Positions 7,497-60,017 of a stretch of 64,000 nt of DNA are shown piece by piece (the stretch's first letter is position 1; every line of letters begins with the position of its first letter). The notes under the pieces are model-generated. The model was not told the DNA's origin. It did no database searches and saw only the letters and a list, made by a program, of their open reading frames with translations. The position numbers were made by a program, and so were the translations under genes. This DNA comes from Blastococcus xanthinilyticus (GTDB taxonomy: Bacteria; Actinomycetota; Actinomycetes; Mycobacteriales; Geodermatophilaceae), in NCBI RefSeq assembly GCF_008124835.1, contig NZ_VNHW01000005.1, positions 124,001-188,000 of the forward strand. Direction: 5' to 3'.

Positions 7497-7979
7497 GTGC
7501 CCGAGCTCGACGCCACCGACGCCCGGCTCCTGCTCGCCCTGACCGAGGACCCCCGCGCGAGCGTGATGGCGCTGTCGCAGCGGCTCGGCCTCGCCCGTGG
7601 CACGGTGCAGGCCCGCCTGACGCGGCTGGAGGGCAACGGGGTCCTGGCACCCCTGGACCAGCGGGTCCGCCCCGAGGCGCTCGGCTACCGCCTCGGCGCC
7701 TACATGTCGGTGCAGGTGGCCCAGCGCGGGCTCGGCGAGGTCAGCGACGCGCTGGCCGACCTCCCGGAGGTCCTGGAGGTCACCGGCCTGTCCGGGGCCA
7801 CCGACCTCCTGGTCCACGTGGTGGCCACCGACGCCGACCACCTCTGGCGGATCACCGAGGCCGTCCTCGCCATCCCCGGCGTGCAGCGGGTGGACACCGC
7901 CCTGGCCATGCGCCGCTTCGTGGAGCGGCGTACCCGCCCGCTGCTGGCGCGGACAGCGGGGGACGACGTCCGCCGCTAG
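7497..7979 (+). CDS. Lrp/AsnC family transcriptional regulator, BkdR-like
   Basis: The 160-residue protein has an N-terminal winged helix-turn-helix (LDATDARLLLALTEDPRAS and LSQRLGLARGTVQARLTRLE) followed by the RAM ligand-binding domain. The GTG at 7497 is chosen because homology begins two residues later and a CAGACT hexamer lies ten bases upstream, suggesting a nearly leaderless mRNA. It is divergent from the bkd operon, the same arrangement as BkdR proteins that control branched-chain oxoacid dehydrogenases in response to amino acids. Its stop overlaps the convergent gene by three bases. Confidence 0.85.
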   Translation: MPELDATDARLLLALTEDPRASVMALSQRLGLARGTVQARLTRLEGNGVLAPLDQRVRPEALGYRLGAYMSVQVAQRGLGEVSDALADLPEVLEVTGLSGATDLLVHVVATDADHLWRITEAVLAIPGVQRVDTALAMRRFVERRTRPLLARTAGDDVRR

Positions 7980-8704
7980 CCCCTCGCCCGGTCCCCGGCT
8001 CCGCCCGGGTGCTCGAGGCGGCGCCCGTCGTCCGTGACGGACGCCGGCCGGCTGTCGGCCGTGCCGCGCGGTTCGGGGACGGCCGGCGCCACCCCCGACC
8101 GCCGGACCGGGACCGGCAGCGGCGGACGGACCACGAGGCTCATCGGGACGGTCCTCGGCTCCGGCGCCCACAGCGGTTCCGGCCAGCCCACGAAGGTCAG
8201 CGACGCCGTCACCGAGGCCGCCTCGCACGTCACCCGGTCGATCGCGCCGCCCCGGACCACGACCGCGGTCTCCCCGACCTCCACCACGACCTCCAGCCGG
8301 AACGCGAACGTGGCGACACGGTGTCCCTCCACGTGCAGTCCCACCTCGAACTCTTCCGTCCACGGCAACGGATGGGGCTGGAGGAGCACAGCGGTGACTT
8401 CACCGCTCCCGGTCGGGGGACCGGTCTCGCGCGCCGCGTCGGCCACCCGTTGATAGCCGGTCAGCCCTCGGAGGACGGGTGCGGCGACGTCCAGGTCGAG
8501 GATCTCGAGGGCGGCCCGGAGGATGCGGCTGTCCAGCAGCCGGAGCGTCGCGGCGGTGAGACGGTAGCGACGGGGCATGGCCGGCGCCGCCAGCCCGTCC
8601 GGCGGCAGCCGGTGCTCCATCGTGGCGACGACCGCGTCGCGGTCCGCCTCCCCGCGGGCGAGATCCCACAGCGTCGTGGGACACGTCAGCTCAACCGTCG
8701 CCAT
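7976..8704 (-). CDS. Hypothetical protein, partner of the PASTA-containing surface protein
   Basis: The 242-residue protein starts at an ATG with AGGAGGT five bases ahead and overlaps the upstream gene by 14 bases, so the two are translationally coupled. It has no signal peptide or membrane helix. The first third is helical (LTAATLRLLDSRILRAALEIL); the rest is beta-rich with many Val/Thr/Glu alternations (FAFRLEVVVEVGETAVVVRGG), and the last 60 residues are Pro/Arg-rich and look disordered. I do not recognise the family. Given the coupling it may work at the inner membrane face with the cytoplasmic tail of its partner. Confidence 0.65.
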   Translation of the reverse strand: MATVELTCPTTLWDLARGEADRDAVVATMEHRLPPDGLAAPAMPRRYRLTAATLRLLDSRILRAALEILDLDVAAPVLRGLTGYQRVADAARETGPPTGSGEVTAVLLQPHPLPWTEEFEVGLHVEGHRVATFAFRLEVVVEVGETAVVVRGGAIDRVTCEAASVTASLTFVGWPEPLWAPEPRTVPMSLVVRPPLPVPVRRSGVAPAVPEPRGTADSRPASVTDDGRRLEHPGGAGDRARG

Positions 8705-10091
8705 GCCGGACCTCCTGGAGCCGGGCCGCGGGGTCCCGACGGACCTCGAGGCGGACGCCGAAGCCGGGCGCGGTCGCGTCCGGGAAGCTGCCGTACGTGG
8801 GCGTCGGGTCGCCGAACAGCACGGCGACCTGCTGATCGACCCATCGCCGTTCCCGCCACCGCCGCCGGAGACGCGCGACCGCCGCCGCCGCGCCGCCCAC
8901 CACCAGCACGGCCAGCGGAGCGCCCACGGCCACCGGGCTGAGCGAGGAGGAGGCCGCCTGGGGTTCGGCCACCACGGCGGCTGCCAGCACGACCGCCACC
9001 GGGCTGTCCGCGGGCACCTCCGTCCCGGGGAGCGGGTCCTGCTGCACCACGGTCCCCTCCGCGCTCGACGGATTCGCCAGCCGCAACGCGGTCCCGGTGA
9101 GCGCGGCAGCCGCCTCGTCCTCGGTGAGCCCACGGAGATCGGGGACGACGACGCGCTCCTCGTCGGAGGTACCGCCCGGCGGAACCTCCTCGCCCGGGGG
9201 GGCCGGTCGGCCGGACGTCGGCCCACCCGGGACCACGGGGTCTCCCGTCGACGGGCCACCAGGCGTCAGCGCCGCCTGCCGCACCGTGAAGGTCGACCGA
9301 CCATCGCACGACGTCCTGAGGACCTGCGGACCCAGGGCCGCCGTCTCCGGCACCACGAACGTGGCCACGAACAGACCGGACCGGTCCAGCGCGCCCGCGC
9401 CGAGGGGGGCCTCCTCGTCGGCGAAGTAGACCTCCACCCGCCTCCCGTCGAAGGTGCCGAGGCAGGTGCCCGTCGCCACGCCCTCGGAGCCGGGCGATCC
9501 CGAGACGGGGTCGAGCCGGAGGTCGGGGGCGGCGAGGACCTCCAGGTCCGTGCTCACCGTGATCCCGTCGCACGTCAGCGTCACCGTGTAGGTGCCCCCG
9601 GATGCGTCGGGCGGCACCGGGAGGCGAGCGGACGCGGACTCCGCCTGCGTCTGCACCGTCGCGCCTTCCGCCTGCCACCCCGGGGGAAGGTCCAGCTCCG
9701 CCTCCCTGGTGCCCGGACTGCAGCCGCCGGAGAGCACGACGGTCGATCCGGCCACCGTCCACGGAGGGGTGACGTCGAGCGTCGGCCCGGCCGGCTCCCC
9801 GCCCTCCTGCCCAGCGCCTTCCTCGACCTCGACCTCGTCGTCCGGCTCGTCCGCGGTCGGCTCCGCGGGGTCGGGGTCGGAGTCGGCCGGGTCGGGGTCG
9901 TTCGGGTCGGGGTCGTTCGGGTCGGGGTCGTTCGGGTCGGGGTCGTTCGGGTCGGGATCGGCCGGCGCGAGCAGGGGCGCGGCCACCCCGGACGTGGCAG
10001 CAGCCCACCCGGGGACCGCCGCCCCGGGGGCAAGGGCCATGAGGACGGCTGCAGTCACCCAGGCCCCGGCGCCGATGGATCCGCTCTTCAT
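8691..10091 (-). CDS. Secreted single-pass membrane protein with NDPDP repeats, Ig-like regions and a PASTA-like domain
   Basis: The 466-residue protein starts MKSGSIGAGAWVTAAVLMALA, a signal peptide ending near residue 31. Then come an acidic Asp/Pro repeat tract (about 45-90), two beta-rich regions that each hold a cysteine pair (Cys124/Cys174 and Cys210/Cys262), a Pro/Gly linker, a PASTA-like domain at about 314-370 (VVVPDLRGLTEDEAAAAL), a membrane helix near 386-406, and a basic 60-residue cytoplasmic tail. The ATG at 10091 is preferred over a GTG 12 bases upstream because of the GGGGGA before it. PASTA domains bind peptidoglycan fragments or beta-lactams, so a cell-wall role is inferred. 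Confidence 0.75.
   Translation of the reverse strand: MKSGSIGAGAWVTAAVLMALAPGAAVPGWAAATSGVAAPLLAPADPDPNDPDPNDPDPNDPDPNDPDPADSDPDPAEPTADEPDDEVEVEEGAGQEGGEPAGPTLDVTPPWTVAGSTVVLSGGCSPGTREAELDLPPGWQAEGATVQTQAESASARLPVPPDASGGTYTVTLTCDGITVSTDLEVLAAPDLRLDPVSGSPGSEGVATGTCLGTFDGRRVEVYFADEEAPLGAGALDRSGLFVATFVVPETAALGPQVLRTSCDGRSTFTVRQAALTPGGPSTGDPVVPGGPTSGRPAPPGEEVPPGGTSDEERVVVPDLRGLTEDEAAAALTGTALRLANPSSAEGTVVQQDPLPGTEVPADSPVAVVLAAAVVAEPQAASSSLSPVAVGAPLAVLVVGGAAAAVARLRRRWRERRWVDQQVAVLFGDPTPTYGSFPDATAPGFGVRLEVRRDPAARLQEVRHGDG
9901..9960 (-). repeat. Four tandem 15-bp repeats coding Asn-Asp-Pro-Asp-Pro
   Basis: The unit TTCGGGTCGGGGTCG (plus-strand reading) occurs four times in direct succession, with one substitution in the last copy. 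It encodes NDPDP in the surface protein. Degenerate flanking units (DPAD, SDPDP) extend the tract. In-frame 15-bp units mean copy number could vary without breaking the gene. Confidence 0.9.
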
Positions 10092-59856: not shown

Positions 59857-59937
59857 GGCTCCTGAGAGGCAGCGCGAAGCACCTGGCTGGCTGCCCGGCA
59901 ACCTCTACTCCGTCTGAGGTGCTCCAGGGGAAGAGCC
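59857..59937 (+). ncRNA. SAM riboswitch, SAM-I/IV class
   Basis: A GGCTC/GAGCC closing stem encloses TGAGAGGCAGCGCGAAGC and GCTGGCTGCCCGGCAACC, then a TGAGGTGC segment that can pair with GCACCTGG-type sequence. This is the core of SAM-I/IV riboswitches that sit upstream of metY/metX in actinobacteria. It lies 80 bases before the metY start and would turn expression down when S-adenosylmethionine is plentiful. Confidence 0.88.
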
Positions 59938-60017
59938 GGTTCCCGCGGCGCCCGCCGTGGGGGCAAGGACGGAGCTCCCGTGCGCCGCGGGTCTCCGCGA
60001 GCGAGAGGAGACGGCGC

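Follow-up and report, generated by a model that had tools for sequence, protein, structure and literature searches.

The PASTA serine/threonine kinases (PknB, Stk1 and PrkA) contain a PASTA domain outside the cell, one membrane helix and a cytoplasmic part. A second group of described proteins, the actinobacterial surface proteins with TIG-like, Ig-like or HYDIN/ASH repeats, contains secreted beta repeats and a single helix. The analysed window, a stretch of 64,000 nucleotides of Blastococcus xanthinilyticus, was found to contain a gene pair whose first product, gene 1, is like both. As in the PASTA kinases, a PASTA domain (PF03793), a membrane helix and a cytoplasmic part were present in gene 1, whereas the kinase domain was absent (Pfam gave no kinase match at E <= 1) and a separate small partner protein was encoded beside it. 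The topology of the PASTA kinases is opposite in domain order to that of gene 1, in which an N-terminal signal and the ectodomain come first. The match of gene 1 to NF033483 ran through the PASTA part only (20 bits against 450), and, unlike in the PASTA kinases, the PASTA domain was missing from many gene 1 members. In comparison with the repeat-bearing surface proteins, gene 1 adds a conserved tail and a translationally coupled gene 2. No description of the pair was found in the open-access literature, which was covered in part.

Gene 1 (8691..10091, minus strand, with ATG at 10091 and the stop ending at 8691) encodes a predicted single-pass surface protein of 466 amino acids, recognised from its open reading frame and from homologues lying directly upstream of gene 2 elsewhere. 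The N terminus was found to be hydrophobic and of signal type in the translation (about residues 1-31, 9999..10091). After it comes an acidic stretch in which NDPDP occurs four times; these units are specified by a tandem repeat of 15 bp with 5.8 copies (9874..9960). Two regions judged by eye to be TIG-like and of beta type (about residues 103-275, 9267..9785) were marked by the four cysteines of the protein, at positions 124, 174, 210 and 262, which fits two pairs (124/174 and 210/262); Pfam gave nothing above its cut-off for these regions. The PASTA domain was found at residues 314-369 (8985..9152; E 2.3e-10, 40.7 bits against a cut-off of 23.2), followed by a membrane helix predicted from hydropathy near residues 387-405 and delimited as about 384-407 (8871..8942) and a conserved basic tail of about 60 amino acids at residues 407-466 (8694..8873), delimited by alignment, a leave-one-out profile test and a profile search. 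The conserved segment of the tail was RWVRxHV..., followed by VRLEPRxDPGxQ. The topology was assigned from hydropathy and charge, and the tail is placed inside the cell because its arginine-rich start fits that location.

Gene 2 (7976..8704, minus strand, with ATG at 8704 and the stop ending at 7976) encodes a putative cytosolic partner of 242 amino acids, assigned to an unnamed family by homologue and profile searches. AlphaFold2 models, built from only four sequences and of modest confidence (pLDDT 66.7 and 68.2), had one half made of helices and another formed by an antiparallel sheet of long strands, the predicted beta half covering about residues 101-200 (8105..8404). Foldseek comparison of these models with the PDB and with viral models gave no match at E <= 1e-3, a weak negative at this model confidence. 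No credible match to gene 2 was found in Pfam, NCBIfam, PHROGs, PADLOC or, by sequence, the PDB; an NCBIfam match of 23.6 bits (cut-off 400) and a PDB sequence match at E 0.055 were set aside. No catalytic domain was recognised in the family searches. The first-pass annotation had described the layout of gene 1 as a signal N terminus, NDPDP repeats, two cysteine-paired regions, PASTA, helix and basic tail, and the open reading frame, repeat detection, Pfam and hydropathy agree with it. Its reading of gene 2 as a protein without an export signal held, none being visible by eye in the translation, as did its statement that neither full architecture matches a recognised family, gene 2 having been compared with the five libraries named above.

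The two genes overlap by 14 nucleotides (8691..8704, minus strand), a length noted earlier and exact when the coordinates of the open reading frames were checked. A gene 1-type reading frame was found directly upstream of gene 2 in 23/23 assessable, unframeshifted actinobacterial loci, gene 1 being cut by a contig end in three of these (L034, L060 and L071). This count leaves out G855 (L063), which has no upstream sequence, and G991 and G997 (L075 and L076), in which gene 1 is apparently frameshifted, possibly by a draft-assembly error. In L076, the frameshifted pair is followed directly, on its own (minus) strand, by two large genes of 912 and 1130 amino acids. An overlap of 4 nt was measured in 14 loci and one of 20 nt in G080, while G1025 shares the 14 nt of the window; short gaps separate the genes in some f104 loci, in G862 (67 nt) and in G055 (about 16 nt). 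The overlap lengths depend on start codons that were picked by hand to suit the alignment. In the other direction, a profile of the tail only gave nine strong matches (E <= 6.1e-10) in 395 genomes of the class, 9/9 of them immediately upstream of gene 2, a test of adjacency and not of finding remote tail genes, as most of the nine were in the profile or near its rows. Weak tail matches in G706, G736 and G920 (E 3e-4 to 6e-4) were without gene 2 and look like chance. The two genes thus form a real coupled pair in fixed order, and the co-occurrence check proposed in the first-pass annotation showed, in both search directions, that their homologues are not usually found apart. Both are genuine genes and not chance reading frames, since homologues in the same order were found across Actinomycetota and the dN/dS of gene 2 was below 1 in 5/5 pairs of relatives (0.29-0.85).

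A search with P0002 matched a pair in the family but outside the genus (G055, E 3e-45) and, more distantly, one within the order (G080, E 3.3e-6); 23 genomes of the same genus gave no match. Profile, contig and plasmid searches, in which the contig scan used a two-row alignment as the five-row one was too divergent, brought in members from a second class (G394, a Nitriliruptoraceae metagenome-assembled genome, and G403), from a Pseudonocardiales metagenome-assembled genome, from Isoptericola sediminis and from two Embleya replicons. A ten-row gene 2 profile matched 16/395 genomes of the class at E <= 0.001, including a probable chance match in G182 (E 3.2e-5), which gives a prevalence of about 4% of the class genomes sampled; within the family, 5/115 genomes of the sample contained gene 2. 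Genomes with weak gene 2 matches (G043, G064, G075, G182, G309 and G620; E 3e-5 to 8e-4) were left out of the membership. When 26 gene 2 proteins were placed in a tree, that of the window grouped with four other members of its family (100/100) on a long stem. The exception to the pairing was found in Caballeronia, a betaproteobacterium, where the hypothetical protein WP_165107341.1 of plasmids pSBC2-4 and pSBC1_3 is distantly homologous to gene 2 (E 2e-5 with an actinobacterial query; the reverse search reaches Embleya at E 6e-6) but has no gene 1 upstream. This lone homologue (L038, 7806-10404 on pSBC2-4, the same stretch being carried by a second Caballeronia replicon) has an ATP-binding-cassette gene on one side and a divergent DUF4157 gene on the other. 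A link to contractile injection systems, considered from the DUF4157 gene, was set aside as no such gene was seen by eye at the other loci.

In the window, an Lrp/AsnC-type regulator gene flanks the pair on one side and a DUF3253-like gene on the other, both named by eye. In G055 the pair was at the same place, and in G991 the same regulator and E1 genes adjoin it, whereas in four genomes of the same genus (G017, G015, G016 and G010) the regulator is next to the DUF3253-like gene and the pair is absent from the site. The flanking genes of the window and G055 were 75-86% identical, against 46% for gene 2 and about 34% for gene 1. Within the family, the pair therefore looks like an old resident that is often lost and diverges fast. 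Outside the family it was found in unrelated neighbourhoods, and an all-against-all comparison of neighbours across loci gave no constant third gene; apart from the two genes of the pair, what recurred were widespread gene types (transporter, ABC, SDR and deacetylase-like) and a gene order shared among members of the window's own family. The same window was also found to contain a full-length SAM-IV riboswitch at 59858-59975 (plus strand, 76.5 bits).

The ectodomains varied from locus to locus. PASTA was found in the window, G055, G1025, Isoptericola and G659, with PASTA-like segments seen by eye in G707, G772 and G895. The ectodomain of G403 contained HYDIN/ASH repeats and that of G080 sub-threshold Big_2 and filamin-like matches, followed, by eye, by TIG-like cysteine repeats in f18 and Embleya, cysteine-rich repeats in f104 and proline- or Gly/Arg-rich stretches at other loci. 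The PASTA state changed at least four times on the gene 2 tree, some states having been scored by eye. The first-pass annotation had named the protein by its PASTA domain and NDPDP repeats; they are present in the window but incidental to some lineages. In contrast, leave-one-out tail profiles over 20 loci, f104 excluded, beat all 2000 same-letter shuffles in 18/20, and the remaining tails were equalled in 1/2000 (L067) and 39/2000 (L065), so the tail is homologous throughout these loci. The f104 loci (L070, L072 and L073) contained a longer tail with several VRL-type segments; their gene 2 proteins carry a long N-terminal extension. In three f103-species pairs and one Embleya pair, dN/dS was 0.18-0.47 for the tail, 0.29-0.85 for gene 2 and 0.45-1.02 for the ectodomain plus helix, rough values from few changes, and the tail was lowest within each of the four pairs. 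On these sequence comparisons, the constant parts of the pair are the tail and gene 2, PASTA being one among several exchangeable ectodomains.

The distance between tails was found to follow that between gene 2 proteins across 17 loci with the ectodomain removed (r 0.63, permutation p 2e-4), whereas the ectodomain with the tail removed gave r 0.18 (p 0.055). When each clade was represented by a single locus (11 loci), the values were r 0.47 (p 0.019) for the tail and r 0.10 (p 0.30) for the ectodomain. As tail and ectodomain lie in one gene, the comparison partly controls for shared ancestry; it leaves room for upstream recombination that swaps ectodomains while tail and gene 2 stay linked in the DNA, and ectodomain distances saturate where the domains are unrelated. 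The tail thus co-varies with gene 2 far more than the ectodomain does, as a statistical linkage. The interpretation first suggested for the window, a sensor-like layout with an inside partner, is supported in part, for the coupling of the genes and the linkage of tail and partner, with sensing, wall binding and tail-partner contact as proposals and with the amendment that PASTA is not its constant outside part.

A receptor-like or anchor-like chassis is the most economical reading of the pair. The explanation that we favour, at somewhat less than even confidence, is an envelope-spanning receptor-adaptor module. Gene 1 would be exported and held by one helix, and its lineage-specific ectodomain, which in the window consists of PASTA and the TIG-like regions, would face the wall or the outside. 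Through its conserved segment the tail would keep the product of gene 2 docked on the cytoplasmic side of the membrane, plausibly with a strand added to the beta sheet of that protein, and gene 2, as a dedicated adaptor, would relay what state the ectodomain is in to machinery whose genes lie elsewhere. We infer the wall binding from the single PASTA domain, which is absent from many members; docking, strand addition and signalling are likewise put forward as inferences. This receptor-adaptor reading is favoured because gene 1 was upstream in 23/23 loci, the tail matches adjoined gene 2 in 9/9, ectodomains were swapped, tail and gene 2 co-varied and dN/dS was lowest in the tail. Its main weakness is the missing output, as gene 2 has no recognised catalytic domain and the loci share no constant third gene. 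The co-variation could also come from the DNA linkage of tail and gene 2, and the lone Caballeronia homologue and the differing f104 tails count against it.

That same missing output suits a structural tether, in which gene 1 would attach to the wall and gene 2 would connect or cluster the tails inside the cell, anchoring or positioning the envelope with no signal. Binding would also suit the varied Ig-, ASH- and PASTA-type modules, and several gene 2 proteins were found to contain proline-rich stretches at the C-terminal end. A structural part would not usually be so sparsely distributed, nor diverge so fast while its flanks are conserved, and we regard a tether as rather unlikely. The patchy presence, the empty sites in relatives, the fast divergence of both genes, the turnover of ectodomains and their relaxed dN/dS speak for a recognition or conflict module, with an ectodomain that reads neighbours or phages and a tail-partner unit that triggers a response through host proteins. 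Yet PADLOC matched none of ten gene 2 members among anti-phage defence systems, the neighbourhoods contained no common toxin, nuclease or other effector gene, and phage and viral-contig searches gave no match that would point to a phage or virus origin, so this module is considered improbable. A dedicated chaperone or stabiliser capturing the tail during gene 1 synthesis, with no sensing role, would fit the constant order and the overlap, the tail being made just before gene 2, but the tail of about 60 amino acids has no evident need of one and gene 2 stands alone in Caballeronia, which leaves this explanation very unlikely.

Within the receptor-adaptor reading, it is possible, although doubtful, that the pair represents a new class of cassette, with a constant chassis of tail plus adaptor onto which ectodomains reading wall or neighbour cues are grafted, and which is kept or lost as a unit. 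Gene 2 belongs to a protein family named by none of the libraries tested, and the conserved tail is short and suits immediate peptide-binding work. If the tail and its partner bind, the pair would provide actinobacteria with a non-kinase route across the membrane whose outside half is modular.
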